Shown here: positions 1 through 19,348 of the stretch, in pieces | How positions within the stretch are numbered: the first letter of the stretch is position 1 | Layout of the letters: every line of letters starts with the position of its first letter | Virus record (IMG/VR): IMGVR_UViG_3300013128_000008 | Location: 1-41,673 of that record | DNA from: a virus | Reading direction: 5' to 3' (one strand) | DNA: 41,673 nucleotides | Position numbers and translations under genes: made by a program | The notes under the pieces: model-generated | What the model was told of the DNA's origin: nothing | Seen by the model: the letters and a program-made list of their open reading frames with translations, nothing else | Database searches by the model: none

Positions 1-1
1 G

Positions 2-136: not shown

Positions 137-144
137 AGGCGCGC

Positions 145-360: not shown

Positions 361-361
361 C

Positions 362-1823: not shown

Positions 1824-1825
1824 AC

Positions 1826-3674: not shown

Positions 3675-3675
3675 T

Positions 3676-6477
3676 ATGAGCGGAGTTACATACCCACATC
3701 TAAAGGCTCCAACAATCGATGGAGCACCCACAATCGTAAGGCTCCCTAAGAAGGTGAAGCCAGAGGACATCACTATCGATGACCTTCGGCACCTCTCGAA
3801 CGAGAGCTTCACGTTGTGGACCCAGACCTCTGGTGTGACGGTTGACGGAAACAACATCGACTTCAATGCCCACAGGTACCTGCTCCCCATCTACCTCTGC
3901 AACGACACAGAAATCGTGTGGCAGAAGGCTGCTCAGATGGGCGCTACGGTGTACATGCTCCTCAAGGTCATCCACTGGTTGCACACGCACCAAGGTAGGA
4001 AGGCCGGACTGTACTTCCCGACCAAAGAAGGCGTAGAAAACCTTTCCAAGGACCGTCTCACGCCCCTGCTTCAGTCGATCCCGGAGCTTAACGGCACAAT
4101 TGACACTCAAGATAAGCTCGGACTGAGGAAGATCGGCAAGTCCTCCTTCTACCTGTTCCACCTTGGCGGTGTTGCCTCCAAGGACTCCGTGCCTCTGGAC
4201 TTCGTGTCCTTCGATGAGGTGCGTCTTTGCAAGCCTCAGGAGATTGACCAGGCCCTAGAGCGTATCAGCCACTCGCCGTACAAGCAGAAGGTATTTATGA
4301 GTACCTGTCATAGCAAGGATACGCGAATTCTTGTGCGTAAGAAGCAAGATGTAAAGTATTGGAAAGTCTCTAATCCGGTGGAGAGTAAGTCCTTTAGGGA
4401 GCTAGAAGATTGCTGGCATCAGTACCAAGTTCTCTGTCAATACCAGAGCAATGGACTGAACTACACATTCCGTGATATTACAGCGTTCCACGACAACGGC
4501 ATCAAGCCTGTAGTAAAGGCGCTATTTGATGACGGTACGGAAGTGGTAGCTACCCACGACCATGAATACGCTTGGTGTGACGCATTCGGAAAGAGCAAGA
4601 ACATACTACGTTGGGAGCAGCTTTCTAAACTCACGGATAAGAACGCTATCGTAACACTCAGGAATATCAGTCAGTATGAAGAGATTGACACTCCGTTTGA
4701 CCTGCTGACCTACTATGTGTTCGGTGCGTACGCCGCAGAAGGCTGTGTGGTTACCGGCACTACGAACACTATTAGCATAGCGCAGCTAAAGAAGACTGAT
4801 ACGCCCATTCGTTCTCGTGTCATCGAATGGGCACAGCGCAACGGATTCAAGTTTTCAGAACAGAGGACTTGTATTCGTGTGTCCTTGAAGACCCGCCCAG
4901 ACTTGTACCAACTGTTCGAGTCTTTTGGAAAGAGCAGCAGCGACAAGCGTTTCCCTGAAATAATTCGCAACGGATCGGTGAAGCAGCTTCGAGAACTTCT
5001 GGATGGCTACATCGATGGTGATGGAACACGCAGAACTGATCATTCGTGGGACATCACCACTACGTCATATGCAATGCTATATGACCTCAAGCTGATAGCC
5101 TTGCGTGTTGGAGAACCTGCGTACATTCGTGACTATGAAGGCCGCACAGAAAACAGAGCACACAGCTATCAACTTTGTCACAACGCTAACTCAAACCGTA
5201 TATTGTCACGCCCACTGAATGCACACTACCGCGCTGCTCGCCTTGTAGAGCTTCGCGAGTGGGGGAATCAAGCCGTCTGCGACATCACAGTAGACCAGTA
5301 CCATAATTTCGTACTGGAAAATGGTATAGTGGCGCATAACTGCGGCTTGCCTGAAAACGATATTGCGGCCCGATTTGACCTGGGAACACAGCATATTTGG
5401 ATGGCTAAGTGCGGGTGCCCAGATGGCGTAGACCTGGCTCGTGCCTTCCCCGACTGTGTCGTAGACGACAAGAAGCGGGGAAAGCTTTACCTGCGCTGCC
5501 CCAAGTGCCGTTTCGTCATCAACGACCCCCAGAACGGCAGGTACGTGGCACACAATCCAGGCGCGGACTACACGTCTTTCCATGTCAGCCAGCTTACGTC
5601 CAAGTACATGCCCTTGAAGACGCTGTGGGACTTCTACTACCGCACGACCAACAAGGCCGAGTTCTTCAACGCTAAGCTTGGACTACCCTACGTTGACGAA
5701 GAGAACAGGGGTGTAACTCTCGGTCAGTTGAAATCCTGCGTTGACCCCATGCTCGAATGGGCGGCTCCTGGCAAGGCGGCTGGCACAGCTATGGGCGTAG
5801 ACGTTGGTGGTGGTTACTGCTATGTAATCATCGCCGACCTTCACGAGAGCAAGAAGCGCATCCGCCATGTGGAAATCATCGAATCGGACAACCCGCATTA
5901 CATGGAAGCTGGCAAGCGTGTGTCTCCGTTCAAGCGGCTTCGCACCTTGATGAAGGAGTACAAGGTTCAGCTATGCGTAATCGACGCCATGCCGAACTAC
6001 GACAGCGTTCTTGAGTTCGCACAAGAGTTTCCAGGCAAGGTGTTCGCTTCCTTCTACTCGAAGGAGGCAAAGGATGTTGTTACCTGGAGTGACAAGCCCA
6101 GGACCAAGGTCACGATCAAGAAGGCCGGTCCACTGCTCAAGTTCAAGTACTACTGCGTTGTGTCGCGGTACTTGAGCCTGGACGTTGCACTCGGCCAGTG
6201 GGCTGGCAACGACGTGATTTGCCCTGACCCAGATCGTCTAGTTCAGATGTGTCTAAACGAGAAGACGAAGGATCTGGAGCCTGAGGCCGTGATGAACCGT
6301 GCGTTCTCCATGTTCATGCGTTTGATCAAACGCTTCAACGTGTCGAACGAGGAAACAGGTGAAGGTAGGCACGAGTGGATCTACTCTGGTGGTGACCCAC
6401 ACTTCGCACATGCCTGGAACTACTGCAACGTGGCCCTTGAACGTATGCGTAGAGGCGTCATCTTCACGTTTGGTTGA
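3676..6477 (+). CDS. terL: Terminase large subunit (GpA-like) with in-frame intein
   Basis: This is the packaging motor that cuts concatemeric DNA and drives it into the procapsid. The 933-residue precursor has a Walker A-like QKAAQMGAT (83-91), the FPTKEGVENLSKDRL block typical of lambda gpA-like terminases, Walker B DFVSFDE (175-181), and the coupling-motif strand FMST (207-210). The frame is then interrupted by an intein (residues 211-555), after which extein resumes with CGLPENDI. A Cys-rich zinc element (CGCPD and CPKC) follows. The nuclease domain shows GVDVGGGY, VIDAMPNYDS and a late HFAHAWNY as candidate RNase H-fold acidic positions. Spliced product would be about 588 residues, normal for the family. 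It follows the ParB-like gene by one base and ends facing minus-strand genes. Confidence 0.95.
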   Translation: MSGVTYPHLKAPTIDGAPTIVRLPKKVKPEDITIDDLRHLSNESFTLWTQTSGVTVDGNNIDFNAHRYLLPIYLCNDTEIVWQKAAQMGATVYMLLKVIHWLHTHQGRKAGLYFPTKEGVENLSKDRLTPLLQSIPELNGTIDTQDKLGLRKIGKSSFYLFHLGGVASKDSVPLDFVSFDEVRLCKPQEIDQALERISHSPYKQKVFMSTCHSKDTRILVRKKQDVKYWKVSNPVESKSFRELEDCWHQYQVLCQYQSNGLNYTFRDITAFHDNGIKPVVKALFDDGTEVVATHDHEYAWCDAFGKSKNILRWEQLSKLTDKNAIVTLRNISQYEEIDTPFDLLTYYVFGAYAAEGCVVTGTTNTISIAQLKKTDTPIRSRVIEWAQRNGFKFSEQRTCIRVSLKTRPDLYQLFESFGKSSSDKRFPEIIRNGSVKQLRELLDGYIDGDGTRRTDHSWDITTTSYAMLYDLKLIALRVGEPAYIRDYEGRTENRAHSYQLCHNANSNRILSRPLNAHYRAARLVELREWGNQAVCDITVDQYHNFVLENGIVAHNCGLPENDIAARFDLGTQHIWMAKCGCPDGVDLARAFPDCVVDDKKRGKLYLRCPKCRFVINDPQNGRYVAHNPGADYTSFHVSQLTSKYMPLKTLWDFYYRTTNKAEFFNAKLGLPYVDEENRGVTLGQLKSCVDPMLEWAAPGKAAGTAMGVDVGGGYCYVIIADLHESKKRIRHVEIIESDNPHYMEAGKRVSPFKRLRTLMKEYKVQLCVIDAMPNYDSVLEFAQEFPGKVFASFYSKEAKDVVTWSDKPRTKVTIKKAGPLLKFKYYCVVSRYLSLDVALGQWAGNDVICPDPDRLVQMCLNEKTKDLEPEAVMNRAFSMFMRLIKRFNVSNEETGEGRHEWIYSGGDPHFAHAWNYCNVALERMRRGVIFTFG
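4306..5340 (+). mobile_element. LAGLIDADG homing intein in the terminase
   Basis: The insert encodes 345 residues from Cys 211 to Asn 555 of the precursor. Splicing features are CHSKDTRILV at the N-terminus (block A), ATHDHEYAW with the block B Thr-x2-His, and VCDITVDQYHNFV followed by the terminal IVAHN (blocks F and G). A Cys is the first downstream extein residue. Two dodecapeptide motifs, VFGAYAAEGC and LLDGYIDGDG, indicate a central LAGLIDADG endonuclease that would copy the element into intein-free alleles. The DNA appears richer in A and T than the flanking terminase. Insertion directly after FMST, a conserved motor motif, follows the usual preference of inteins for invariant sites. 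Confidence 0.95.
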
Positions 6478-6481
6478 GAAC

Positions 6482-6700
6482 TTATATTCCCCTTGCGTCG
6501 CCGCAGATTTCTGCGGCGTACTGCTCTAGCGTCTTGCTTGCGAACGGATTGCCATGGCGCTCCAGTGCCCACCTTGCGCCACGTTCCTCTGCTTCACGGA
6601 TTATGCGCGCCAAGCATTCTTCGCGTGTTTCGCCGGGACGCCAGATGGAGTCGTCCGTACCGTTCATCGATACAGCGTCAATGAGTTCTCGCGTGTTCAT
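6482..6700 (-). CDS. Hypothetical protein (72 aa)
   Basis: A short, charged, helix-rich protein whose middle reads ETREECLARIIREAEERGARW and whose end reads LEQYAAEICGDARGI. ATG 6700 is chosen because AAGGAG lies 8 bases upstream. The frame is open further, with in-frame ATGs at 6757, 6766 and 6820 that have weaker or no ribosome sites; the 6757 start would follow the stop of the 36-codon frame upstream by 1 base. The protein converges on the terminase, 4 bases separating the two stops. Its last codons overlap a perfect hairpin at 6499-6518. No family was recognised. Confidence 0.55.
   Translation of the reverse strand: MNTRELIDAVSMNGTDDSIWRPGETREECLARIIREAEERGARWALERHGNPFASKTLEQYAAEICGDARGI
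6499..6518. terminator. Perfect 8-bp stem-loop between convergent genes
   Basis: CGCCGCAG and its exact complement flank a 4-base ATTT loop, 20 to 40 bases downstream of the terminase stop and inside the last codons of the minus-strand gene. There is no U-tract on either side, so this would be an intrinsic terminator of the tract-less kind at best. Its position at the meeting point of convergent transcription units supports a bidirectional termination or transcript-end role. Confidence 0.45.
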
Positions 6701-6758
6701 CGCTTCTTCTCCTTCACGTTCCCGTTCGTATTGGTCGGTCGCATAGGCAAGGTGCATT

Positions 6759-6869
6759 TCAACCATGGTGTTGTACTGCTTGGCAACGCCGACTGGACTC
6801 CTCGAATGCAATGCCGCCATGCGGGTTTGCTGGTGCTGGATGGATTAGATCCTTCTTCTTCTTCTTCAC
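6759..6869 (-). CDS. Possible tiny protein, Lys-rich start (36 aa)
   Basis: A GTG at 6869 overlaps the stop of the 165-aa gene upstream (GTGA), with GAGGGG just before it, and opens a 36-codon frame. It begins with five lysines (MKKKKKDLIHP) and ends AVQHHG. The lysine run comes from an AAG repeat. The start/stop coupling is like that of genuine genes in this genome, but the length is small and no motif is present, so it could be fortuitous. Confidence 0.3.
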   Translation of the reverse strand: MKKKKKDLIHPAPANPHGGIAFEESSRRCQAVQHHG

Positions 6870-7363
6870 GCGCCCCTCTTGTATTCTGCGCTTAGCTCAA
6901 TGAGCGCGAAGAAAGCTTCGACTGTCTCAAGGTCGCCTTCCAGGCCAGCCGCAGTTGCCTGCACGAACTGTTCGTAATTCATGGAAGGGCCAAGTTCCTT
7001 GTCGGTGACGGTCTTTGCCATGTGTACCATCCAACCCGGTAGCACGCGCCTAGATACCAGGCAAGGTGCATCATTGTCCAACACCACCAACGCGTCCTTC
7101 ACGGTAATCACATGCGCTGCTAGCTCGGTGCCGTTTGCACTCGCACGCATGATCAAGTTCTTCAACGCCGGGACGAAATGATTGGCGTCTGTAAAGGGCA
7201 CATACCCTTTGCTCGTCCACTGCTCAAGGTTGGCTCTAGCTATGCGCGTCATCTCCACAGTAGGATGTGCTTCATACATACTCATGCTAATCCACCGAGT
7301 CTTTCTGGTGCTGTCGCCTGCGAAGTGTGCTTCCACAGCAGCCACCACTCCAGGATGCGTCAA
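6866..7363 (-). CDS. Hypothetical protein (165 aa)
   Basis: The frame is long, well composed and on the same strand as its neighbours. The TTG start at 7363 overlaps a stop in the preceding short frame (TTGA). ATG codons 26 and 28 codons further in (MSMYEAHP) are alternatives, and protein-like codons continue a little upstream of the TTG, so the start is uncertain. The protein mixes helices and a short hydrophobic strand (HVITVKDALVVLDN) and ends with a helical segment (ETVEAFFALIELSAEY). No motif, signal peptide or membrane segment is visible and no family was recognised. Confidence 0.6.
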   Translation of the reverse strand: MTHPGVVAAVEAHFAGDSTRKTRWISMSMYEAHPTVEMTRIARANLEQWTSKGYVPFTDANHFVPALKNLIMRASANGTELAAHVITVKDALVVLDNDAPCLVSRRVLPGWMVHMAKTVTDKELGPSMNYEQFVQATAAGLEGDLETVEAFFALIELSAEYKRGA

Positions 7364-7431
7364 GTCCGCCCTGAATGCCAGCAGATACAGCCAGTGAGGA
7401 CAACATCGCCATAGTCCACTTCGTACCTCAC
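7360..7431 (-). CDS. Possible 23-aa coupled leader-like ORF
   Basis: A GTG overlapping the stop of the 56-aa gene (GTGA) opens a 23-codon frame (MRYEVDYGDVVLTGCICWH) whose own stop overlaps the TTG start of the 165-aa gene (TTGA). Both junctions have the coupling form seen elsewhere, and the composition is protein-like. It may be a genuine micro-protein or may simply deliver ribosomes to the next start. Confidence 0.25.
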   Translation of the reverse strand: MRYEVDYGDVVLTGCICWHSGRT

Positions 7432-7598
7432 TTCCGAACTAGACAGAACTTGAAGTCCTGGATGTTTCCAGCGAGGTCGAACTGACCTATTAGCTTGTCG
7501 AGGGCCTCACTCAAGGACTTAGCTGAGACGTACGCGTCCAACAGCTTGCCTTGCTTGGTGAGCACTACAATGTAGTAGCAGGACCTAGTTGCCTCCAT
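7428..7598 (-). CDS. Small hypothetical protein (56 aa)
   Basis: ATG 7598 has a GAGG ribosome site 7 bases upstream and lies about 30 bases downstream of a strong sigma70-like promoter (7631-7659). The protein begins MEATRSCYYIVVLTKQGK, then AYVSAKSLSEALDKLIG, and ends DFKFCLVRK. This looks like a compact beta-alpha-beta domain. It appears to be the first gene of a short minus-strand unit running to about 6482. No family was recognised, but promoter, ribosome site and codon use together make it a convincing gene. Confidence 0.7.
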   Translation of the reverse strand: MEATRSCYYIVVLTKQGKLLDAYVSAKSLSEALDKLIGQFDLAGNIQDFKFCLVRK

Positions 7599-7630
7599 GA
7601 GTATACCTCATCAACTGTGCCCTCTCTAGT

Positions 7631-7659
7631 ACAGTAACACTATGTCTGGAATGTGTCAA
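7631..7659 (-). promoter_or_regulatory. Sigma70-like promoter for the 7598-6482 unit
   Basis: On the minus strand a perfect -35 box TTGACA (7659-7654) is followed after 17 bases by TACTGT (7636-7631). It points at the 56-aa gene, whose ATG is 32 bases beyond the -10 box. It is back to back with the patatin promoter. Confidence 0.7.
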
Positions 7660-7669
7660 GCACTTTCAC

Positions 7670-7698
7670 TTGGCAGGAACGTACATAGCTGCTACATT
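7670..7698 (+). promoter_or_regulatory. Promoter for the patatin gene, leaderless geometry
   Basis: TTGGCA (7670-7675), a 17-base spacer and TACATT (7693-7698) place the expected transcription start at about the ATG of the patatin gene (7706). There is no ribosome site upstream of that ATG, which agrees with leaderless translation. The -35 boxes of this promoter and the opposing one are only 10 bases apart. Confidence 0.6.
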
Positions 7699-7705
7699 CA
7701 AGCCC

Positions 7706-8560
7706 ATGAGGGCGCTAGTACTTTCAGGTGGCGGTAGTAAAGGTGCGTACCAAGTAGGAGCACTCCGTCGTCTCGCTGAGAATGGCGAGAGGTATGACCT
7801 ATTCTCTGGCGTCTCCGTAGGATCCATCAACGCCACACAGCTTGCCCAGCATACCAGCCTGCCTCCTGCAATCGAGAGACTCACTGAGTTGTGGGCCAGT
7901 GTCAGGACAGAGGACGTTGCCAAGAAGCGTTTCCTAGGGCCGCTGAGCCTGCTCTGGGCTCCGTCAATTTACACCGCTGAGCCTATGCGGAAGCTGATCT
8001 CGGACAACCTGGACTACGACGCCCTGCTCCGAAGCGGCAAGAAGCTCCAGATAGTAAGCGTGAACCTGCACACGGGTGGTACACACATTTGCACCGAGCA
8101 GGTTCCTCGCGAAGAACTAATTGACAACATTCTCGCGTCTTCAGTTGCGCCCATCGTCTACCCGCCTGTGCTACTCGGCGGCGAAGCGTATGTGGACGGC
8201 GGCGTGAGACATGTTTCCCCGCTGGATGCAGCCATCCAGGCAGGTGCAGTGGACATTGACCTGATCCTCTGTGGCGGGCAGAAGCAGCGCCGCTGGGACT
8301 CGAAGGTCACGAACATCCTGTCGTACGCAGACCGTATGATTGACCTAATGCTCGCAGAGATCATCGAGAACGACCTGGTAATGACAGAGCTACACACCAA
8401 GCTGAAGCTAGTGGACAGCACTCACACCAAGAGGGCTATCAACCTCAGGGTATGCCGTCCGGAAGTCACGCTTGACGTGGAGTCTACGAAGTTCATCCCA
8501 GCGGTTTCGCAGGAGCTCATGCGTAAGGGCTACGCAGACGCCATGTGTGCCTTTGGCTAG
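7706..8560 (+). CDS. Patatin-like phospholipase
   Basis: A serine lipid acyl hydrolase of 284 residues. The oxyanion-hole loop SGGGSKGAYQVG lies at residues 7-18, the nucleophile elbow GVSVG has Ser37, and the catalytic Asp is in DGG at 164-166, so the Ser-Asp dyad is complete. Members cleave fatty acyl chains from membrane lipids. For a phage, possible roles are host membrane remodelling or lysis support, but nothing here decides between them. There is no signal peptide, so the product should be cytoplasmic. ATG 7706 gives the canonical start MRALVLSGGG; a TTG at 7670 is in frame but lies in the promoter. Its stop overlaps the convergent 52-aa gene by 4 bp. Confidence 0.92.
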   Translation: MRALVLSGGGSKGAYQVGALRRLAENGERYDLFSGVSVGSINATQLAQHTSLPPAIERLTELWASVRTEDVAKKRFLGPLSLLWAPSIYTAEPMRKLISDNLDYDALLRSGKKLQIVSVNLHTGGTHICTEQVPREELIDNILASSVAPIVYPPVLLGGEAYVDGGVRHVSPLDAAIQAGAVDIDLILCGGQKQRRWDSKVTNILSYADRMIDLMLAEIIENDLVMTELHTKLKLVDSTHTKRAINLRVCRPEVTLDVESTKFIPAVSQELMRKGYADAMCAFG

Positions 8561-8715
8561 GGTGCGTCTACAATCTCTCCGGTGATGGAGATTACCTGTA
8601 GGCGCGTCATCCTCGTGCGATCCTTGCGTTCTTCCTGGTCTTCAGCCTCTTGTTCAGGCTTGACCGAGGCGGTAACGTCAAGGTCAGGGTCGAGAAGGTT
8701 GAGTACAATGACCAT
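8557..8715 (-). CDS. Small acidic hypothetical protein (52 aa)
   Basis: ATG 8715 is preceded by AAAGGAG 10 bases upstream and by a near-consensus promoter (8738-8766). The protein starts MVIVLNLLDPDLDVTASV, has a highly charged centre (EQEAEDQEERKDRTR), and ends with a short strand-like segment LQVISITGEIV. It is a single-gene unit convergent with the patatin gene. The function is unknown. The strength of its own signals makes it more credible than the plus-strand frame over the same bases. Confidence 0.65.
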   Translation of the reverse strand: MVIVLNLLDPDLDVTASVKPEQEAEDQEERKDRTRMTRLQVISITGEIVDAP

Positions 8716-8737
8716 AGAGGCAGCACTCCTTTACTAC

Positions 8738-8766
8738 ATGATAGATCGGGTGCTGCTGCTTGTCAA
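8738..8766 (-). promoter_or_regulatory. Strong sigma70-like promoter
   Basis: TTGACA (8766-8761), 17-base spacer, TATCAT (8743-8738) on the minus strand. It reads into the 52-aa gene, leaving a leader of roughly 15-20 bases that contains its AAAGGAG ribosome site. No equally good promoter was seen for the divergent dam gene. Confidence 0.7.
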
Positions 8767-8855
8767 CTCTTGACTATCTCGGTCTTACTTTAGGAACGCC
8801 GCAATGAGAGCGGTTTTCACTGGCACGACGATCATAACCTGGTAGGGTAGCGGTG

Positions 8856-9377
8856 ATGGATCAAACCACCCTCAGTAAGATGGTCTCCAGCGCCAACCAG
8901 CACTGGAATACTCCTCCCGAAGTCCTAGACCCGATCTACCAGAAGTTCGGCACAATCGGACTAGACCCCTGTTCCAACTCGAACAGCATCGTTCAGGCAA
9001 ACAACAAGTTCGCCGGACCCGACATCGACCACGACGGTCTGGCGGAGTCGTGGCAGGGTTACGGCCTTGTCTTTGTGAACCCACCGTACGGTCGCAAAAT
9101 CAAGCACTGGGTTAAGAAGTGCGCCGACGAAGCTGCGCTTGCCAAGAACGCAGGCACCAACACGGAGATCATCCTCCTGGGGCCAGCGCGCACGGATACG
9201 AAGTTCTTCCAGAAGATTGTTTGTCCTACGGCGGACAAAGCTATCCTCTGGGAAGGACGTTTGACGTTCCTTGGCGCGCCCGCACCAGCGGTATTCCCGT
9301 CGTTCCTGGCCTATTGGGGACCGAACGCGGACAAGTTCATGATGGCCTACCTTGGAAAAGGTTGGTTCATCCTCTGA
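8856..9377 (+). CDS. dam: Phage DNA N6-adenine methyltransferase (Dam-type)
   Basis: It transfers a methyl group from S-adenosylmethionine to adenine N6 in DNA, probably protecting phage DNA from host restriction or marking it for regulation. The 173-residue protein has the compact layout of the phage Dam family: an N-terminal HWNTPPEVLDPIY segment, IGLDPCSNSNS (the D-x-C SAM-region block), and the catalytic NPPY (75-78), then a C-terminal FLGAPAPAVFPSFLAYWG block. ATG 8856 is preferred over the adjacent GTG 8853. Its last 16 codons including the stop lie within a 60 bp sequence repeated exactly at 11646-11705. It is convergent with the tail-fibre gene, with one base between the stops. Confidence 0.93.
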   Translation: MDQTTLSKMVSSANQHWNTPPEVLDPIYQKFGTIGLDPCSNSNSIVQANNKFAGPDIDHDGLAESWQGYGLVFVNPPYGRKIKHWVKKCADEAALAKNAGTNTEIILLGPARTDTKFFQKIVCPTADKAILWEGRLTFLGAPAPAVFPSFLAYWGPNADKFMMAYLGKGWFIL

Positions 9378-9389
9378 ATCAGAGCGCGA
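9330..9389. repeat. Direct repeat A, copy 1 (60 bp exact)
   Basis: This 60 bp block covers the last 16 codons of dam (through its stop at 9377) and the last codons of the convergent tail-fibre gene. An exact copy lies at 11646-11705. It marks the left edge of unit 1 of the tail-module tandem duplication. Confidence 0.95.
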
Positions 9390-11598
9390 CCTTCTCGCCC
9401 ACATGAATGATGATGCTCGACTGCGAGAACGCGAAGCCAATGCGGATGGACGTAGATCCAACTGCGGTAGGAACCGTGCTCGTGAGCAGACCGGCCGTGG
9501 AGTCACTGAGGTAGACGGGCGTGTTCGCCGTGAGTCCCGAGAGCCCATCGACGTAGCCGCCCATCGCGACCAGAGCGCGTTCACCCGCGAGGCCGGTTCC
9601 TTCGACGGCGATGACGACGCCGAAGGCGTTGTCCGTGTTGTTCGCTGTGATCGGATCTGCCTTCACGACGGTCGAGGTCGCGGCGTCCATCGCGACGACA
9701 TCCTGCACCGCGACGCCTCCGGTCCCGATGACGAACTCGCGGAGGAGCGCGGTCGCGTAGAGACGGCCACCCTTCGTGAGCAGGGTCTCTCCTGCGGAGC
9801 CCGCACGCAACGCCAGATCGGCGACAGTGCCGTCTGCGGTGTTCGTACCGGGCCGCATGAGCAGGCGACCCAGGTTGTTCACGTCGAGCGGATCGCTTCC
9901 GACGTTCGTGGTGTAGGCGTCGAAGCCCTTGACCGTCGTCCCGGTGCCGCTGCCCATGCGGACGACCGAGTGCCCGATCACGGGGATTGGAGCCGCAGGC
10001 TCGCCCACCGTCATGAGCGCCGGGTCCACCACGAGCACGTTCGTGCCGCCCGTGCGCGCGTTGATGAGGACGTTCAATCCTCCCGCTGCGTTCAGGTCGA
10101 GAACGATGCCGGTTCCCTGATGCTCGATGGCCGTTGCGATGCCGCCGCTGAAAGCGTTCGACACGATGATCTGAGCGGCCCCCGCGTTGCCTGCCTGGTC
10201 GATGTCGAGACCCAGAGCGGGTGCTGAGAAACCCACGTCCACGTCGAGTGCAGCACCGCTGCCTGCGGTGGAGAAGTCCACATGGACGCCCGCACCAGAC
10301 GAGGTGACGAGAAGCGCGTCGCTCACACCTGCGTGATGGACTTCCAGCGCAGGGTTGGGGTTGCCGAAGGGCCCCACGACGCGGCTGGCCGGAGTTGTCG
10401 CGCCCGCACCCACGAGCAGCGCAGGACGCCCGCTGCCCGAATGGTTGACACTGATGCCCTCACCCGCCGAGTTCGCTCCGTTGGAGATGTTGAGCGCGTC
10501 ACCCGCCGTGTTCGCGATGGTCGGGTTCTTCGTGATCTCCAAGCCACTGCCGACGTTCGGCGTGGTCGAGGTGATCAACATGACGCGCCCATCCGGGTTC
10601 GTCGCGGCGTCGATGATGTCGATCGCCCCCGTGAGGTCGAGCGTGATGTCCGGCCCGCCGTCGTAGGCACCCTGGAGGTCCGTGACGCCACCGCCACCAC
10701 CTGCGGTGAAGGCAGTAACCGTTACCCACCAGTTCGTACCGTCAGAAGACACGTCCCACTGGCCACGAGCAGCGGTGTTAGACCCCTGGAGGTCGAAGTT
10801 AGCGGCTACACCATTGATTAGCTCAGCAACGTCAGGAGCAAGCGTGATCTTGTTGGTACCTGTATTGGTCTTCGTAATCCTGAAATGACGACCAAGGCCC
10901 TGAATAGTAGGATCAGGAAGCGTGAGCGTTACGTCACCGCCCGTCGTATTTACGAAGAGCTGACGGTCCTTCTGGACGAGAGTCGTGCTCACGGTGACCG
11001 TCTGCGCATCTACTGCGTCGATACGAATCCACCATGCGTCTCCAGCGTCATCACCAGTCTGAACATAGAGACGCCCAGAATCACCAACGCCCTCCTGCCA
11101 GAACGAGCCAGGAAGAAAGCCCACAATATTATTGTCAGTGCCGTCCACTGGAGCGGTGCCCGCACCATACCGAAGGCGCGACTGCGGAGAAGTAGAGAAT
11201 GTGAACCAGTTAGTCCCGTCGCAGTAGACCATCCACGCCACATACGGGAGCGAGAAGCCCGAGGAACTAACCGGATTCTCTGCGCCGTACAAGACACGAT
11301 TGGCTGCAACGTTGTCGATGCTCTCCAGACCCGCACGCACAAGCGTGATCGTACCGGTCGCAGGACCGTTGGTCTTGCGGATGATGTACACTCGACCAGC
11401 AGCAGCCGCTGGGAGCGTGAGGTTGAGTACGCCAGGAGCGATTGCCGTGGTGTCCACGTTCACAATCGCGTTGCTCGAAGGCAGAGTCTGAGACGCAACC
11501 GCCGAAACGTAGGCGTAAGAACCCCCCAAGGTAGCAGGGTCGATTGCGGCGCTGAAAACACCAGTTACATTGTCGCGGGCTACAAGACGATCTGACAT
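9379..11598 (-). CDS. Tail-fibre-like structural protein (739 aa)
   Basis: A large, low-charge protein rich in Gly, Ala, Thr, Val and Asn with many short beta-strand-like repeats, typical of trimeric tail fibres or spikes. Repeated features include DGTNWF and DGTNWWVTVTA (residues about 130 and 290), strings such as ALDVDVGFSAPALGLDID and NAFSGGIATAIEHQGTG that suggest a beta-helix, and a C-terminal module (TANTPVYLSDSTAGLLTS) resembling a beta-barrel tip. The first 25 residues (SDRLVARDNVTGVFSAAIDP) are nearly identical to those of the product of 13010-13489, which probably form the shared attachment end. The ATG lies 10 bases after a TAAACT -10 box. A receptor-binding role is inferred from composition and position. 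Confidence 0.75.
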   Translation of the reverse strand: MSDRLVARDNVTGVFSAAIDPATLGGSYAYVSAVASQTLPSSNAIVNVDTTAIAPGVLNLTLPAAAAGRVYIIRKTNGPATGTITLVRAGLESIDNVAANRVLYGAENPVSSSGFSLPYVAWMVYCDGTNWFTFSTSPQSRLRYGAGTAPVDGTDNNIVGFLPGSFWQEGVGDSGRLYVQTGDDAGDAWWIRIDAVDAQTVTVSTTLVQKDRQLFVNTTGGDVTLTLPDPTIQGLGRHFRITKTNTGTNKITLAPDVAELINGVAANFDLQGSNTAARGQWDVSSDGTNWWVTVTAFTAGGGGGVTDLQGAYDGGPDITLDLTGAIDIIDAATNPDGRVMLITSTTPNVGSGLEITKNPTIANTAGDALNISNGANSAGEGISVNHSGSGRPALLVGAGATTPASRVVGPFGNPNPALEVHHAGVSDALLVTSSGAGVHVDFSTAGSGAALDVDVGFSAPALGLDIDQAGNAGAAQIIVSNAFSGGIATAIEHQGTGIVLDLNAAGGLNVLINARTGGTNVLVVDPALMTVGEPAAPIPVIGHSVVRMGSGTGTTVKGFDAYTTNVGSDPLDVNNLGRLLMRPGTNTADGTVADLALRAGSAGETLLTKGGRLYATALLREFVIGTGGVAVQDVVAMDAATSTVVKADPITANNTDNAFGVVIAVEGTGLAGERALVAMGGYVDGLSGLTANTPVYLSDSTAGLLTSTVPTAVGSTSIRIGFAFSQSSIIIHVGEKVAL

Positions 11599-11607
11599 AG
11601 TGGCAAA

Positions 11608-11645
11608 CAGTTTAGCGCATCTAGGCTAACAACACAACTCAAATA
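11608..11645. repeat. Direct repeat B, copy 1 (38 bp exact)
   Basis: Identical to 13500-13537. It lies directly upstream of the tail-fibre ATG (minus strand) and abuts repeat A copy 2 with no base between. Homology of lower identity extends leftward to about 11521, through the shared N-terminal codons. Its right edge includes the 7 bases that, in the other copy, form the metallophosphoesterase 3' end. Confidence 0.95.
11609..11637 (-). promoter_or_regulatory. Duplicated promoter of tail-fibre gene 1
   Basis: Within repeat B on the minus strand: TTGTGT (11637-11632), 17-base spacer, TAAACT (11614-11609). The ATG follows 10 bases later with no ribosome site, so the transcript would be leaderless or nearly so. 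The offset to ATG differs by one base from the second copy, which argues that the conserved block is regulatory rather than coding. Confidence 0.5.
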
Positions 11646-11693
11646 GACAAGTTCATGATGGCCTACCTTGGAAAAGGTTGGTTCATCCTCTGA
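11646..11693 (+). pseudogene. Remnant of the dam 3' end (16 codons with stop)
   Basis: Bases identical to the last 16 codons of dam, reading DKFMMAYLGKGWFIL then TGA, but with no methyltransferase sequence before them. The block is a by-product of the tandem duplication: the junction with repeat B at 11645/11646 is abrupt. Confidence 0.9.
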
Positions 11694-11705
11694 ATCAGAG
11701 CGCGA
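11646..11705. repeat. Direct repeat A, copy 2 (60 bp exact)
   Basis: Exact second copy of 9330-9389, located between the tail-fibre 1 promoter and the 90-aa gene. It contains the dam 3' remnant and, on the minus strand, a vestige of codons equivalent to the fibre 1 C-terminus (IAL then stop), which no longer belong to a gene. Confidence 0.95.
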
Positions 11706-11730
11706 TGGTGGTTGTCCGTCCACCGCATCG

Positions 11731-12003
11731 TTAGTTGACGTTCTTTGGGTCGTCGATAACGTAGTCTGTCGTGTCGATCCCGAAGGTTCCGGGGCCAGGG
11801 TACGAAGCACCGATCGTGTCGGGGCCCGCAGTCTGCCACCGCACCTCGTAGCCGCCGATCGTGGACCAGACACGGTTTGTCACGAGCGGTGGTGCAGGCG
11901 GAGTACCCGGAAGTGTCCCGACGTCACGAAAGTCGATCGCACGCCCGAACTGAACGCGATCAACATTGATTTCTATATCGCGGAAGTCGTCTAGAGTTGC
12001 CAT
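11731..12003 (-). CDS. Hypothetical tail-module protein (90 aa)
   Basis: ATG 12003 has GAGG just upstream. The protein is soluble, starts MATLDDFRDIEINVDRVQFG, has a Pro-rich centre (GTLPGTPPAPP), then a strand-rich end (VWSTIGGYEVRWQTAG and TTDYVIDD). The composition suits a small virion or tail-associated protein. It is the last gene of unit 2 of the duplication, downstream of two structural genes on the same strand with a 9-base gap. No family was recognised. Roughly 25 bases separate its stop from repeat A copy 2. Confidence 0.55.
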   Translation of the reverse strand: MATLDDFRDIEINVDRVQFGRAIDFRDVGTLPGTPPAPPLVTNRVWSTIGGYEVRWQTAGPDTIGASYPGPGTFGIDTTDYVIDDPKNVN

Positions 12004-12012
12004 GGTTCCTCA

Positions 12013-13008
12013 TCAGGGGATCGGCACAGGCTGCGGAGCCGGTGGCCACGGAAAGCACCAGGTGCCGCTGTTAGCGCCGGTACACCAGCCAAGCCCGTTC
12101 TGATCCAACCCGTAGAACCCAAAAGTGCGGGTCAGCGGCAGCATACGGAGCGAGGTAGGATGCACTGTGCCCTTTGCGCACTCGTTTGTGGAGGTGACCC
12201 ACAAAGGTGCGGCGATTGCGCTGAAGCCGGTGATTGGATCAACCTGACCGTTGTTGGCCCAGAAAGAAGAAGTGTCGGGAGAACTCATCTGGCGTCGGGT
12301 GTAGGTAGGTCCAGCGGCCCAATCCCATCCGCTCCAGTCGCTGTTGGATGCGTTGTAGACGACGGGATCGATGTCAGCCGACGACTCGTTTGCGATGATC
12401 GGCTCCAACGACCAGTACCTGACCTCCGCGAGAGTAGTGTTTCTGACAGAGAACCACCCCAGCGGACGTCCACCATCCACGCCTGGCGTCGTGTCGGCCC
12501 ACATATGAACAGTGGATGCGGTGTTAAAACCAAACAGATCAACTCCAGTAGAGTTGCGGGTCGAGCCAAAGAAGAAATACTCATCACCGGCACCGCTCGT
12601 CGGCGCACCTGGAGCCGTAGTAGCGTTGGCCGTCGCGCCGTTGAAGCCGCTGCTGCCAGCGCGAGCCACGGCGATGATTCCGTAGGAGGCCCAAGCTCCA
12701 GCGCCTGTGCCGCTGGTCATCTGCAACAGAACTTGACGACCGGCGGGATCTTCCAGCACGCACCACGCGCTCGCGTTGCCCGCGTCTCCTGCAACGACCG
12801 GCGTGCTGTTTGTGCGGACGTTGCCGGTAGCCCACACGTCGTATATCGGCCCAGGCGTGATGCCGTTCCACTCAAACAAAACGTCGCCATCGCCACTGCC
12901 GCGCACGACGTAACCAGCGGACACAGCGAGAACTTTCAGCTCAAAGAACTTCTGGCCAGCGTACTGCGTCGCGCCCTGCCCCTGATTCACGTTGAAGATC
13001 TGTGCCAT
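12013..13008 (-). CDS. Probable tail or virion structural protein (331 aa)
   Basis: A strong GGAGGT ribosome site lies 8 bases before ATG 13008. The protein is rich in Gly, Ala, Ser, Thr, Trp and Asn with few charges, as in many phage structural beta proteins. Examples are FELKVLAVSAGYVVRG near the N-terminus, FFFGSTRNSTGVDLFGF in the middle, and a Pro-rich C-terminus (FPWPPAPQPVPIP). Four Cys residues occur late and could be structural. It lies between the short fibre-like gene (one base upstream) and the 90-aa gene, so the three probably form one structure. It could be a fibre shaft, tip or head decoration; the function is inferred from composition and context only. Confidence 0.55.
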   Translation of the reverse strand: MAQIFNVNQGQGATQYAGQKFFELKVLAVSAGYVVRGSGDGDVLFEWNGITPGPIYDVWATGNVRTNSTPVVAGDAGNASAWCVLEDPAGRQVLLQMTSGTGAGAWASYGIIAVARAGSSGFNGATANATTAPGAPTSGAGDEYFFFGSTRNSTGVDLFGFNTASTVHMWADTTPGVDGGRPLGWFSVRNTTLAEVRYWSLEPIIANESSADIDPVVYNASNSDWSGWDWAAGPTYTRRQMSSPDTSSFWANNGQVDPITGFSAIAAPLWVTSTNECAKGTVHPTSLRMLPLTRTFGFYGLDQNGLGWCTGANSGTWCFPWPPAPQPVPIP

Positions 13009-13009
13009 T

Positions 13010-13489
13010 TCAGCTTACCTCCAGCCCTGCCCAACGAACAACGAGTGAGTTTGCCGGTCCCGACCACTCGGCGCGGATCTCGTACATGCGAAGCGCCGCG
13101 ACCATGACACTGAGGCTTGGCGTGGTTGGATCCGTCGTGAACGGTGCTGAGTCAAAAGACACAGGCGCATTGACCGTGGTATCGACCAGAGTCGCGATCT
13201 GCACACCAGCCGCAGGGGAGCCCGGTGCGCCACGGTCCCAGAGGGAGATCGTCGCAATAGGCGGCGAAGCCGGCGGCGACTGCACCAGCGTCCAGTAACC
13301 CCGGAACACGCGCGACGTGTAGAGCGATGCGTCGAACACGAAGCCGCCAACGACAGCCTGGACGCCGCTCGTCAGTTCCTCGTTCGTCGCGCCAGTCAGT
13401 TGCGAGATGCCACCCCCCAAGGTAGTAGGGTCTATTGTGGCGCTGAAAACACCAGTTACATTGTCGCGAGTTACAAGACGGTCGGCCAT
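13010..13489 (-). CDS. Short tail-fibre-like protein sharing N-terminus with fibre 1 (159 aa)
   Basis: The first 25 residues (ADRLVTRDNVTGVFSATIDP, then TLGGG) match those of the 739-aa fibre at both protein and DNA level, after which similarity stops. The rest is a beta-rich domain (FVFDASLYTSRVFRGYWTLV, TISLWDRGAPGSP, and near the end RMYEIRAEWSGPANSLVVRW) that could be a sandwich. It is the first gene of unit 2 and lies behind the second copy of the repeat B promoter. The shared N-terminus is probably the part that attaches to the tail, with the variable remainder exchanged. ATG 13489 lies 11 bases from the -10 box; in-frame TTG codons further upstream fall within the promoter. Confidence 0.65.
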   Translation of the reverse strand: MADRLVTRDNVTGVFSATIDPTTLGGGISQLTGATNEELTSGVQAVVGGFVFDASLYTSRVFRGYWTLVQSPPASPPIATISLWDRGAPGSPAAGVQIATLVDTTVNAPVSFDSAPFTTDPTTPSLSVMVAALRMYEIRAEWSGPANSLVVRWAGLEVS

Positions 13490-13499
13490 AGTGAACAAC

Positions 13500-13537
13500 C
13501 AGTTTAGCGCATCTAGGCTAACAACACAACTCAAATA
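13500..13537. repeat. Direct repeat B, copy 2 (38 bp exact)
   Basis: Exact copy of 11608-11645. Its right end includes the last 7 bases of the metallophosphoesterase gene (final Ile codon, stop and one more base), and its left end reaches the leader of the short fibre-like gene. It marks the right edge of the duplicated segment. Confidence 0.95.
13501..13529 (-). promoter_or_regulatory. Duplicated promoter of the short fibre-like gene
   Basis: TTGTGT (13529-13524), 17-base spacer, TAAACT (13506-13501) on the minus strand, identical to the copy before fibre 1. The ATG follows 11 bases after the -10 box without a ribosome site, again suggesting a leaderless or near-leaderless message. Confidence 0.5.
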
Positions 13538-14217
13538 TGTACTACTAGCGGTGACATATGTGCCACACCAGTCGAGTCAGCCGAGCATGCTGCGTTCACC
13601 ACGATAGTATCATACTGTGTAGCCTGTATGCCATATCCTGCATGTAGGTGCCCACAGACGTGATATTTGGGACGGACTACTTTGATGCGCTCCAATAGCT
13701 GCTTGCAGCCTGCGTGGCAGAGGACACGCTTGTCCCTGCCGACGTACCGGTTGGCTGGTACAGTCATATCCAGGACAAGGTCCCGAAAACCATACGGTGG
13801 GCCGTGAGTAATCAATACGTCGGTATCCAATGGTATTTTAGCCCAGTGGTCTTCCGTCTTTCTCGCGGACCGGTCCAACTGGAAAGCAAAGCCTTCCCCG
13901 AACCTTGGCGTATGAGGATCGCCGTAGAACTTTACACCCTCGATCTCGCAGGCACTGCCGTTGAGAATGAAGGCGTTGTGACGCGTAAAGTCGTCCTGGA
14001 TGACCTCGAATGTGCGCTCGGCGAACACGTCGTGGTTTCCGGGGATGGCAACCTTGTACCTGGCCTGTGAGAGCCCGAAAAACCACTTCTCGAACTCCGA
14101 GATCTCTGAGTACGCGCCACCTACAGTCCAGTCACCTGCATGGACAAGTACGTCGCACTCAGGAATCTTGATCATCTTGTGCTTGTTGTGGGTGTCGGAA
14201 ATGCAAACAATCTTCAT
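13531..14217 (-). CDS. Calcineurin-like metallophosphoesterase
   Basis: The 228-residue protein has the full set of metal-binding motifs: SDTHN near the N-terminus, VHAGDW, IPGNHDVF, ITHGPP and CGHLHAG. This supports a two-metal phosphoesterase acting on phosphomono- or diesters; the substrate is unknown. A Cys-containing insert (RVLCHAGCKQLLER) lies before the last motif. ATG 14217 overlaps the epimerase stop as ATGA, so the two are translationally coupled. This start gives the usual beginning MKIVCISDTH; an in-frame TTG upstream is not needed. Its final codons form the edge of repeat B. It is distinct from the SbcD-like nuclease gene at 22415-23515. Confidence 0.9.
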   Translation of the reverse strand: MKIVCISDTHNKHKMIKIPECDVLVHAGDWTVGGAYSEISEFEKWFFGLSQARYKVAIPGNHDVFAERTFEVIQDDFTRHNAFILNGSACEIEGVKFYGDPHTPRFGEGFAFQLDRSARKTEDHWAKIPLDTDVLITHGPPYGFRDLVLDMTVPANRYVGRDKRVLCHAGCKQLLERIKVVRPKYHVCGHLHAGYGIQATQYDTIVVNAACSADSTGVAHMSPLVVHI

Positions 14218-16006: not shown

Positions 16007-16623
16007 TTCTTTTCCTGACTTGGTGTGAAGACGGCCTTCTCCGAGTCCCAACCACGGTTCAGGCGCTTGTAGATGGTGAACATCGACACAGAGCACCTGG
16101 AGTCGCGAGACCACTCAGAGACTGTCTTGGTTTCGTTGTCGATAGTAAGCTTGACGTTGCTGCGGGTGTTGACGTTCTGCTCTGCACGAGACGCCCACCG
16201 AACGTTTCCTGGCTCGTAGCCCCGGTTCGTGTCGATGCGCTCGATGGTATCGGTGAGGTTGGGACGCTTGCCAACCATGAAGAGGAAGGCTTCAAAGCTG
16301 CCCCTCCACAGGTCGCAGACATAGATGCCGCGTCCACCGTAGTTCTTGTAGTCCTTGTTGTTGGAGTTGTGGCAACGCTGGATCATGTGAACCCAGGTGT
16401 TGTACTCCGGTGACGCACGCCCATAAGGAGATGCTCCGTGGGTCGTCTTGGACAACCCTACGGAGCATTTTCGACACATCAGGGACTTGCCGTTAAGCAA
16501 GTCATAGATACGTACGTAGTGTTCGGTGCGTTCGCAAGTACAACGGCACAGTACCTTCCCATCCTTCTCAGGACCAAGTACCGTCCACGCTCCGTACTTC
16601 TTTCCAGTCTCTACACCAGCCAC
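16003..16623 (-). CDS. HNH homing endonuclease
   Basis: A free-standing endonuclease of 206 residues. The N-terminal part has two Cys pairs (CRCTC and CRKC) forming a zinc module. The central part has SPEYNTWVHMIQRCHN and YGGRGIYVCDLWRGSF, then the HNH core ending in ERIDTNRGYEPGNVRWAS with Asp, Asn and Arg positions typical of the phage HNH group. The C-terminus (TKTVSEWSRDSRCS, ending in RGWDSEKAVF) is a helix-turn-helix repeat of the NUMOD type for DNA recognition. The GTG start is served by AGGT and by its own promoter-like boxes 8 bases upstream. It is not inserted in a recognisable intron, so it is probably an intergenic homing gene. Confidence 0.9.
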   Translation of the reverse strand: MAGVETGKKYGAWTVLGPEKDGKVLCRCTCERTEHYVRIYDLLNGKSLMCRKCSVGLSKTTHGASPYGRASPEYNTWVHMIQRCHNSNNKDYKNYGGRGIYVCDLWRGSFEAFLFMVGKRPNLTDTIERIDTNRGYEPGNVRWASRAEQNVNTRSNVKLTIDNETKTVSEWSRDSRCSVSMFTIYKRLNRGWDSEKAVFTPSQEKK

Positions 16624-16631
16624 AATACGTA

Positions 16632-16659
16632 CCTATAGCACCATTAGCCTGTCGTGCAA
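16632..16659 (-). promoter_or_regulatory. Promoter-like element before the HNH gene
   Basis: TTGCAC (16659-16654), 16-base spacer, TATAGG (16637-16632) on the minus strand. The GTG start lies 8 bases after the -10 box. A private promoter would fit a recently arrived homing gene, but the boxes are only moderate matches. Confidence 0.4.
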
Positions 16660-16663
16660 GCGT

Positions 16664-17023
16664 TTAGGTGGCCAGATCCCACCTTTCGCGCTCGGAGGCC
16701 ACACAATGCTTGACCAGCTTGTCGCGTAGCTCCTTGTTGGCTCCCTGGCGCAAGTCGCCCATGTAAGCAATCCCGACGTACTCACCGGTGTCGTAGTCGT
16801 GTCCGACCTCTCGCACCTTGACCTTCAGCTTGGTGATCTTGTTGAAGACCTTCTCCATGTAGTCAAACTCGTGGTAATCACCCACCCCCAGCTTCACAGG
16901 GAGCGAGAAGCCTACAGTGGTGGCCAGTGCGGGCTCGAAGCTGGTTGCCAGCTTCTTGGTCGTGGTCTTCTTGGTCGTGGTCTTCTTGGTCGTGGTCTTC
17001 TTGGTCGTGGTCTTCTTGGTCAT
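16664..17023 (-). CDS. Protein with repetitive Lys/Thr-rich N-terminal tail (119 aa)
   Basis: The first 24 residues are built from tandem KKTTT units encoded by a 15 bp DNA repeat, giving a histone-like, strongly basic tail. The rest is a compact acidic-to-neutral domain (LPVKLGVGDYHEFDYMEKVF, KVKVREVGHDYDTGEYVGIA) of unknown fold. The tail is likely to contact DNA or RNA, or to serve as a flexible linker; this is inference from charge. The start overlaps the upstream stop as ATGA with AAGGGA before it. The repeat number could vary between relatives. Confidence 0.65.
   Translation of the reverse strand: MTKKTTTKKTTTKKTTTKKTTTKKLATSFEPALATTVGFSLPVKLGVGDYHEFDYMEKVFNKITKLKVKVREVGHDYDTGEYVGIAYMGDLRQGANKELRDKLVKHCVASERERWDLAT
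16952..17020. repeat. 15 bp tandem repeat in coding sequence
   Basis: Four full units and one partial unit of CTTCTTGGTCGTGGT, starting at 16952, 16967, 16982, 16997 and 17012. The length is a multiple of 3, so copy-number change keeps the reading frame of the basic tail. It was judged a coding minisatellite rather than a CRISPR or regulatory array. Confidence 0.9.
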
Positions 17024-17385
17024 CGGATCTTTCCCTTCTTAGCGCCTTCACGGGCGTTGTTGACGATCTTCTTGGCAAGGGCGACTTCATCGCCTGGCTT
17101 CGCGATCTGGATGCTCTGCGACTCCTCGCGCAGAGCGCCCGCTGCCGCTGCTTCGATCTTCTTCGCGACCACCTCTGGTGGGTTCTCGATCACCTGGAGC
17201 GTGATCTCACGCTTCTCCTCGTCCACCAGCTTCTGGACGGTGTAGTAGGTGTCCATGAACAAGCGAAACTTGTCGGACAGCAGTAGCTGGTTGAAGATCG
17301 TGCCGTACGCAAGCAGGATCTCACGTTCATTGGGCAGGACGTTCTCTGCGGTTTCAGGGGTTTCCACGTTCTCAGTCGCCTCCAT
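17020..17385 (-). CDS. Hypothetical protein (121 aa)
   Basis: ATG 17385 overlaps the thyX stop as TGATG, with AAGGAGG immediately upstream. An acidic N-terminus (EATENVETPETAENVLPNE) leads into helices (REILLAYGTIFNQLLLSDKF) and then mixed segments (EKREITLQVIENPPEVVAKK). The Lys-rich end (NNAREGAKKGKIR) overlaps the next gene. No catalytic motif is visible. It lies between thyX and the KKTTT-tail protein, so it probably belongs to the metabolic and DNA-handling operon, but its role is unknown. Confidence 0.6.
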   Translation of the reverse strand: MEATENVETPETAENVLPNEREILLAYGTIFNQLLLSDKFRLFMDTYYTVQKLVDEEKREITLQVIENPPEVVAKKIEAAAAGALREESQSIQIAKPGDEVALAKKIVNNAREGAKKGKIR

Positions 17386-18233
17386 CACTCCTCCTTCTTG
17401 GGAAATACGCTCTCGTTTGGTAGCGTCTTACGGTATTGAATCCACGGTATGGCGAAATTGCCTGCTAGATCAAGGCGGTTCAACTCTGGGTGACTGTACG
17501 GACCTACGAATGCCTGATGCTCGAACGGACTCATGTGTCCAGACTGTTGCAGCATGTCGTGACGTGCGATCTCCTCTTCCACAGTCTTCCGCACGCCGTG
17601 CTTCTCGTAGGAGACAGCGGCGCAACGAGCTACGGAAATCTTTGCAAGCAGGAGGTCTAGCCCATACACTGCGTTGATGTCATCCTCGCCGATGAAGGGA
17701 AGATGCCATTCGCCGTCTAAGAGCTTGGTCGGCTTGGACTTGGCAATGGCCTCGCGCATCAACTGAGCCACGATCATGATCTCGGGCTGTGCGTCCTTGT
17801 GCGTGCGGAGGTTCATGTAGTTGTCCCACTCCGTAGCCGTGACGATCTGTGAGACCCACGCAAACGGTTCCGTGAGACGGTTGGCGTACTGCTTGTGCAC
17901 GCCAATATTAGCTAGCCGACGAGCATGACGAAGTGCGTCCGCCAGAGCCTCACGCCAGATGGCCTCGGCCTCTGCATTGGCTTCCGGGTCAAGCAGTTCG
18001 TCCGCCCTCATGCCCCGCTGGTTCTTCCCGAAGGCTTCCGGGACGAACGGGTTGGCTTCGATGGTACTACATCGAGTCTCTACCGGAATGGCTCGACTGG
18101 ACGCTGTGTTCCGGCTGAACACTCGGTGGGTATTCTGCTCCGCTAGTACGATTCGTGGGAACGTTGCAACGATGGAAATCAATCGCTTGCCATTTGGTGC
18201 GATGGAATCGCACAGGATATCAGCTCCGTACAT
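17385..18233 (-). CDS. thyX: Flavin-dependent thymidylate synthase
   Basis: It converts dUMP to dTMP using methylene-tetrahydrofolate, FAD and NADPH, supplying thymidine nucleotides for phage replication. The ThyX signature appears as THRVFSRNTASSRAIP (residues 35-50), a phage variant of R-H-R-x7-S with Thr for the first Arg. Supporting segments are FAWVSQIVTATEWDNYMNLR (the usual Q-x-T-E-W-x-N region) and a C-terminal block ISVARCAAVSYEKHG. At 282 residues it is within family range. The Met start joins the upstream membrane-protein stop as TAATG. It sits next to the dNMP kinase, which would phosphorylate its product. Confidence 0.9.
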   Translation of the reverse strand: MYGADILCDSIAPNGKRLISIVATFPRIVLAEQNTHRVFSRNTASSRAIPVETRCSTIEANPFVPEAFGKNQRGMRADELLDPEANAEAEAIWREALADALRHARRLANIGVHKQYANRLTEPFAWVSQIVTATEWDNYMNLRTHKDAQPEIMIVAQLMREAIAKSKPTKLLDGEWHLPFIGEDDINAVYGLDLLLAKISVARCAAVSYEKHGVRKTVEEEIARHDMLQQSGHMSPFEHQAFVGPYSHPELNRLDLAGNFAIPWIQYRKTLPNESVFPKKEE

Positions 18234-18526
18234 TATTCGCCTTTCTCGTCGTCTTCCCCGTCTTCATCTTCCCCATACGCGTCCTCTTCCGTTACAGGCG
18301 GCGGTGGCTCGCTTGGCGTAGAAGCAAGGTACTCAAGCCAGTTTACGTAGCCGTCCCAAGCTGCACGGGCAATGAGCGTGAACACCGCAATCACCAAACA
18401 AGTCAGCGCAGCGAGCAGGATCTGCTTCGACAGGATGAAGGCGACAAAGAAGACCACCAGGAGGACGATATACGCCTCACACATGGCGGCTGCTGCGGCA
18501 TAAAGGGAGTTTCCTTTGTTCTTCAT
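18233..18526 (-). CDS. Small membrane protein with acidic tail (97 aa)
   Basis: Two hydrophobic segments are evident at about residues 18-33 (AYIVLLVVFFVAFILS) and 36-52 (ILLAALTCLVIAVFTLI), enough for a helical hairpin in the membrane. The C-terminal 25 residues are Pro-rich then extremely acidic (EEDAYGEDEDGEDDEKGE). No lysis or transport motif is recognised. It lies between dNMP kinase and thyX with a one-base overlap to the latter. It is one of several small membrane proteins embedded in this replication operon. Confidence 0.65.
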   Translation of the reverse strand: MKNKGNSLYAAAAAMCEAYIVLLVVFFVAFILSKQILLAALTCLVIAVFTLIARAAWDGYVNWLEYLASTPSEPPPPVTEEDAYGEDEDGEDDEKGE

Positions 18527-18535
18527 GGCAGGCTC

Positions 18536-19348
18536 TCAGTGGTGTGACAGGTTGAACAACTCGATGTAGGTGTCTACAGCCTGGTAGAGCTCCCGCAAAG
18601 AGTGGTCATTCTGAATGAGACAGTCGAAGCTGTCCAGGTCAAAGTCCTCTGCTTCCGACGCATGACCAAAGATTCCGATGCTTGCAGCCTCGGAATCAGT
18701 CGATGGACGTATCACTCGGATGACGCTACCGCCTTCCTTGTGGATGGCCTCAAACTCGTTCTGAAAACGCACATCAGAGATGACTACGCCGTGAACTACC
18801 TTGGAAGCCTTTGTCGCCGGGATTGGACCTAGCAGTGGGTCATACGTCCACTTCTTGGTGTTACCGTCCTCGTGGAGCAGCGTCTTGGCCTGCGAGAGCA
18901 ACGCGTCGATCCAGATGCTGTCCCGCACTGCCTCACGACCCCATTCCGTGCCCAACGTCTGCAACATCACGCGGGGCGACAGGTTGGGGTAGGACTCCTG
19001 GAGGGTACAGAACCAATGCACCAAGGCTTTGTACGCGCTCTCCACGAGGTCCACATCATCGGTACCCATCACAGAGCGGCAGTACTCACGTCCCCAGGCT
19101 TCTAGCCGTCCGCGAGCCTCTGCCCATGCCGCGCTGTCTGGAGCGTAGCGCGCGTCCACAGCGTTCCGGTACTGAGACGGACCCCAGAGTTGCTTCTCGG
19201 TGAAGAGGAACACGTGGTATCCGAACCGCTTGATCGGATCTGCCAGTGCGATACGCACGAAGCCGTATTCCGCGATGAGATGCTCCGCGACTGTGTCCTT
19301 ACCGGACCCAGCCCGACCAGATACTCCAATGATTCTGCTCTTGTGCAT
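18536..19348 (-). CDS. Deoxynucleoside monophosphate kinase
   Basis: It transfers phosphate from ATP to dNMPs, completing dNTP supply along with ThyX and MazG. The Walker A motif GVSGRAGSGKDT lies at residues 8-19. RVMLQTLGTEWGRE and VVISDVRFQNEFEAI, then GGSVIRVIRP, and a late HASE segment are the familiar blocks of the T4 gene 1-like phage dNMP kinase family. The length of 270 residues is normal. GAGG upstream of ATG 19348 overlaps the end of the preceding gene. A phage-specific modified nucleotide as substrate cannot be excluded, since these kinases often accept them. Confidence 0.9.
   Translation of the reverse strand: MHKSRIIGVSGRAGSGKDTVAEHLIAEYGFVRIALADPIKRFGYHVFLFTEKQLWGPSQYRNAVDARYAPDSAAWAEARGRLEAWGREYCRSVMGTDDVDLVESAYKALVHWFCTLQESYPNLSPRVMLQTLGTEWGREAVRDSIWIDALLSQAKTLLHEDGNTKKWTYDPLLGPIPATKASKVVHGVVISDVRFQNEFEAIHKEGGSVIRVIRPSTDSEAASIGIFGHASEAEDFDLDSFDCLIQNDHSLRELYQAVDTYIELFNLSHH

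Follow-up and report, generated by a model that had tools for sequence, protein, structure and literature searches.

The fibre locus studied here lies in an uncultivated virus contig of 41,673 bases, the whole of which was analyzed (hereafter the window). Between the 3′ ends of dam and of a metallophosphoesterase gene, two units stand head to tail, the first with a single large ORF and the second with three smaller ones (Table 1).

Table 1. Features of the fibre locus and its borders (window positions)
Feature	Positions	Strand	Remarks
dam (DNA N6-adenine methyltransferase)	8853..9377	+	Pfam PF05869, E 7e-15; 60-69% identity to relatives' dam, C-terminus included
Unit 1	9330..11645	-	2316 bp
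Left border, native copy	9330..9389		last 48 bp of dam plus 12 bp including the fibre 1 3′ end
739-aa putative tail fibre (fibre 1)	9379..11598	-	residues 4-293 55% identical to a 313-aa protein in L012/L013
Right border of unit 1	11521..11645	-	7-bp severed metallophosphoesterase end, promoter-like 38-bp block, fibre 1 start and first ~26 codons
Novel joint between units	11645..11646		no microhomology
Unit 2	11646..13537	-	1892 bp
Left border, severed second copy of dam 3′ end	11646..11705		100% to 9330-9389
90-aa ORF, unit 2	11731..12003	-	good ribosome-binding site; no family match
331-aa ORF, unit 2	12013..13008	-	good ribosome-binding site; no family match
159-aa ORF, unit 2	13010..13489	-	common fibre N-terminus; 49% over 45 aa to L026 fibre
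Right border, native copy	13412..13537	-	continues into metallophosphoesterase gene
Metallophosphoesterase gene flanking the island	13531..14217	-	PF00149, E 5e-12; orthologue at same place in L024 contig

Alignment of the two units bore out the first-pass annotation, which had described tandem units with exact borders of 60 and 38 bp. The left borders are identical at 60 of 60 positions. On the right, 11604-11645 and 13496-13537 agree at 41 of 42 positions, 38 bp of these being exact, and the adjoining 11521-11602 and 13412-13493, the stretch of about 85 bp said to encode a common fibre N-terminus, are indeed 90% identical. In the unit-unit alignment, the right borders merge into a single match of 126 bp (91.3% identity, 38 bp exact, ten mismatches and one gap). 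These repeats are far above those of shuffled sequence, the longest exact repeat expected by chance being 14 to 17 bp (30 Markov-shuffled windows). Elsewhere in the window, direct repeats of at least 22 bp are confined to an array with a 15-bp period near 16950-17020, within or near ORFs 16664-17023 and 17020-17388, and the remainder of the record holds no extra border copies. Beyond the borders, no further significant similarity was detected between the units (next match, E = 0.04), as expected from the claim that their interiors differ completely. The junction, CTCAAATA/GACAAGTT, is base-precise where it had been placed and has no microhomology with either native flank; the window contains no N's. 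The footprint is that of a tandem duplication: copies placed head to tail, outer borders identical, and a single novel joint. The homology throughout the copies that a simple duplication would give is absent, only the 60-bp and 126-bp borders matching, and because the interiors are unrelated we call the locus heteroallelic.

At 9330, the 60-bp copy stays in the dam reading frame, and its translation, DKFMMAYLGKGWFIL up to the stop codon, aligns with the dam C-termini of the relatives L026, L024, and L025 (PSFLAYWG...G.GW). Because the frame runs through this copy and the product aligns in this way, the copy at 9330 is the native one, and that at 11646 a severed end of the gene. The 60 bp had been described as the dam 3′ end, which holds for 48 bp, but the other 12 bp lie downstream and also carry the last codons of the 739-aa ORF. 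At the opposite side, the 7 bp at 11639-11645 are a severed metallophosphoesterase end, with the intact gene end at 13531. For both flanking genes, the inner border copies are severed pieces and the intact copies lie outside, again as in a tandem duplication. The borders thus have the anatomy of a tandem duplication that reaches 7 bp into one flanking gene and 48 bp into the other and breaks neither.

The remainder of the 38-bp block had been taken for a promoter. The gene end within it stands, but the promoter-like TTGTGT-17-TAAACT matches the consensus at only 4/6 and 4/6 positions and was not called by a promoter scan. No clear ribosome-binding site precedes the fibre-type starts at 11598 and 13489, and a possible −10 box stands ~10 nt ahead of each; messages from these starts may be leaderless.

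Blocks this precise, bracketing each cargo, could also be independent attachment or regulatory elements between which a dedicated recombinase inserted modules. We regard this as very improbable and as largely refuted: relatives carry homologues of the 60 bp, which belong to the dam coding sequence, the window has just two occurrences of the promoter core, neither block was found in other viral contigs (an exact search for the promoter block and a degenerate back-translation of the dam end gave no match), and no integrase or invertase is present among the ORFs scanned. An independent regulatory repeat, named beforehand as the finding that would overturn the duplication, was dropped on the same grounds. 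A terminator role for the 60 bp was dropped as well: the folding z is −0.36 in unit 1, and the −2.78 of unit 2 includes an added stem formed by sequence beyond the 60 bp.

Both units open with a protein that begins M(S/A)DRLV(A/T)RDNVTGVFSA(A/T)IDP(A/T)TLGG, and the anchor codons of unit 1 and unit 2 differ by four nonsynonymous and two synonymous changes. In unit 2, the 174-aa ORF first called from a TTG is better started at the ATG at 13489, which aligns with the start of unit 1 and gives 159 aa. The 11 bp corresponding to the fibre 1 end persist in unit 2 as a noncoding remnant, 25 bp behind the last ORF. A structure model of the 331-aa protein was unusable (pLDDT 31).

The fibre-slot proteins of the window have no match in PHROG, Pfam, the PDB, or phage records, and DNA and protein searches with the units against phage records were likewise empty. 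Three matches to a degenerate fibre N-terminus were rejected as chance occurrences inside unrelated fibres. The neighbours of the L012 protein that matches residues 4-293 of the 739-aa protein show weak matches to tail/virion families, and a protein in the corresponding slot of the L024 contig matches tail PHROG 17420 at 6.6e-9, which places the slot at a tail-module position in relatives. From the slot position and the weak N-terminal homology to the L012 protein, the cargo is putatively a tail fibre, and it would presumably bind receptors. Residues 301-739 of fibre 1 (439 residues, window 9379-10698) have a GC content of 66% and a GC3 of 0.82, against 57% and 0.59 in the N-terminal part. A separate origin of these C-terminal residues, and with it a second level of mosaicism, is suggested. 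No genome contig was confirmed to carry the 739-aa protein.

A search with TerL retrieved five relative contigs, including one of 169 kb, at 79 to 87% protein identity in the best segment, and a search with dam recovered two of the five again. Gene order in the L024 and L026 contigs is replication block, epimerase, (metallophosphoesterase), fibre island, small gene, RNase HII, ParB, TerL, with dam beyond TerL and in the opposite orientation. The L026 island holds one 273-aa gene with an N-terminus of the same kind, MPDRIVTRDTATGVLSATLDP, and a promoter-like element at the same place, while that of the L024 contig holds at least four different genes (282-, 113-, 142-, and 1164-aa ORFs), one being the tail PHROG match. 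Because these islands differ in gene content, the slot downstream of the epimerase/metallophosphoesterase changes its cargo, with the start region partly kept in L026. Among the five contigs, the slot is a fibre island of differing cargo wherever it was readable, and no border duplication was seen in any of them. The comparison proposed earlier, of one-unit and two-unit forms among relatives, therefore yielded one-unit islands with different cargo in the same slot, but no two-unit relative and no one-unit sibling of this very lineage. A near-identical second record (99.9%, from another sample) covers only window 19290-41358, which excludes the fibre locus. This phage is also present in sample 3300013133. 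At 16092-18748, L026 also carries a low-complexity family, several tandem ORFs built from (N/D)G(N/Y)G repeats that end alike at the C-terminus.

Relative to the replication block, the window carries its TerL block in inverted orientation; a divergent pair, dam and a small ORF, sits between the TerL block and the fibre slot. The 60-bp border crosses the dam/fibre joint, so the duplication postdates the rearrangement that set dam against the fibre 3′ end. Compared with the L024 and L026 contigs, the inverted block comprises small gene-RNase HII-ParB-TerL-patatin (window 1-9377 versus 9379-41673). The pair of dam and the 53-aa ORF (8556-9377) is flipped against patatin, a layout that one simple inversion does not account for. 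The gene truncated by the contig start (window 1-136) matches, over its last 43 residues and at 86% identity, a 210-aa gene that in L026 lies beyond dam, in another neighbourhood.

We consider it probable that the fibre slot underwent a heteroallelic tandem duplication through a nonhomologous joint, placing two fibre alleles in one genome. The slot is bounded by the 3′ end of the metallophosphoesterase gene and by that of dam, the latter in this lineage; joining the metallophosphoesterase end of one copy to the dam end of another would give two complete modules head to tail, each with its own promoter-like start, a similar N-terminal anchor, and a different cargo. Both flanking genes are retained, because one intact copy of each remains. 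Such an exchange would most likely have taken place during co-infection by sibling phages already differing in their fibre cassettes. Both anchors could be made and dock at the same virion site; the four nonsynonymous anchor differences and the two synonymous ones weaken the case for shared docking.

The first-pass annotation had proposed duplication followed by replacement of one cargo. The duplication footprint, the severed ends, the common N-terminus, and the unrelated cargo are all in place, but the order of events does not follow, as a single unequal exchange gives the same DNA. In this two-step variant, which we hold to be possible though not the likelier course, the phage's own module was duplicated exactly, and recombination at the conserved borders with a relative then replaced one cargo. 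The outer borders are identical (60/60 and 38/38) while the adjoining 88 bp differ by ~10%, which fits a recent duplication and a more distant donor of cargo and N-terminus, and the remnant of the fibre 1 end in unit 2 points the same way. Identical borders are, however, equally expected from sibling parents, and the L026 N-terminus agrees with unit 2 at codons 7 and 18 but with unit 1 at codon 22, so that neither unit is clearly the newcomer. The two routes are inseparable from sequence; we slightly prefer the one-step sibling exchange because it needs one event where the other needs two.

A further explanation is that two strains, dam-unit 1-phosphoesterase and dam-unit 2-phosphoesterase, were strung into one contig during assembly or amplification. 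Strain bubbles with common borders are typical assembly trouble spots, the record is a linear metagenome contig, and the sole near-identical second record does not cover the region. The joint, however, has no overlap, microhomology, or N's and occurs in neither single-unit genome, so that a k-mer assembler would need reads holding it, and, at 98 bp in total, both repeats at the joint fit in a single short read of ordinary length. We judge chimerism unlikely.

If the heteroallelic duplication is real, its own repeats offer a way out of it. An in silico crossover in the 60-bp repeats deleted unit 1 and left an intact dam with unit 2, and crossovers at all positions tested in the 126-bp repeats deleted unit 2 and kept the 739-aa fibre in frame with 0 to 4 residues changed. 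The two-unit arrangement should be unstable, one crossover in either repeat giving, in silico, a clean single-unit locus. Recombination between the border repeats is plausible because the phage encodes UvsX-, SSB-, RusA-, and SbcCD-like proteins. That the locus is instead maintained as host-range bet-hedging, with both fibres made and the repeats steadily releasing either single-fibre progeny type, seems to us improbable. Fibre cassette swapping is usually inferred from the comparison of finished genomes. A genome with both cassettes in tandem, and with borders that can be ordered in time, is a plausible intermediate of such swapping and lets read data test whether a two-fibre state is a passing or a lasting one in phage populations.

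Among known systems, the invertible fibre segments of Mu and P1 switch by site-specific inversion and carry a recombinase gene. They likewise let one genome carry two alternatives for the receptor-binding part, preceded by a common N-terminal part, but here the repeats are direct and nearby genes include no recombinase that was found, so any switch would delete a unit irreversibly. With no inverted repeats of at least 22 bp in the window and no site-specific recombinase among the ORFs scanned, a switch of this type was dropped. Crosses of T4 can give duplications with two different alleles. Tandem segmental amplifications arise readily in T4 through recombination at short homologies, as in the tifA amplification (PMC9391042), and rII duplications are known from Kumagai et al. 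1993, as cited there. These amplifications and partial diploids share with our locus a short segment duplicated head to tail and an expected instability through recombination between copies; the tifA copies, however, are identical and joined at short homologies (PMC9391042), whereas the cargo here is unrelated and the joint lacks microhomology.

Multi-tail-spike clusters of the Ackermannviridae also combine several receptor-binding genes per locus, with conserved N-terminal parts, exchangeable C-termini, and added copies that recombine; one kuttervirus gained a fifth tail-spike gene, which has a common N-terminal part and recombined with its neighbour (PMC11414711). Those spikes differ in having distinct N-termini and in assembling, with XD/TD domains, into a defined branched complex, and severed flanking-gene borders are not described in the passages of that article consulted here. 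Orphan CdiA-CT/Rhs tip arrays, for which tandem duplication was proposed as a route, resemble the locus in keeping displaced variable modules beside the active one, to be restored by recombination in common flanks (PMC3150448). Most orphan tips, however, are without starts, whereas each unit here has a promoter-like region and a start codon, and the proteins are unrelated.

Intein-like inserts were observed elsewhere in the window. The gene for a UvsW-like helicase (window 38456-40927) carries one with homing endonuclease and LAGLIDADG domains at residues about 133-465, which is absent from the L024-contig orthologue. The TerL gene (window 3676-6477) carries another with a LAGLIDADG domain at residues about 220-535; it is absent in the TerL genes of four relatives, and L025 holds a partial related insert.
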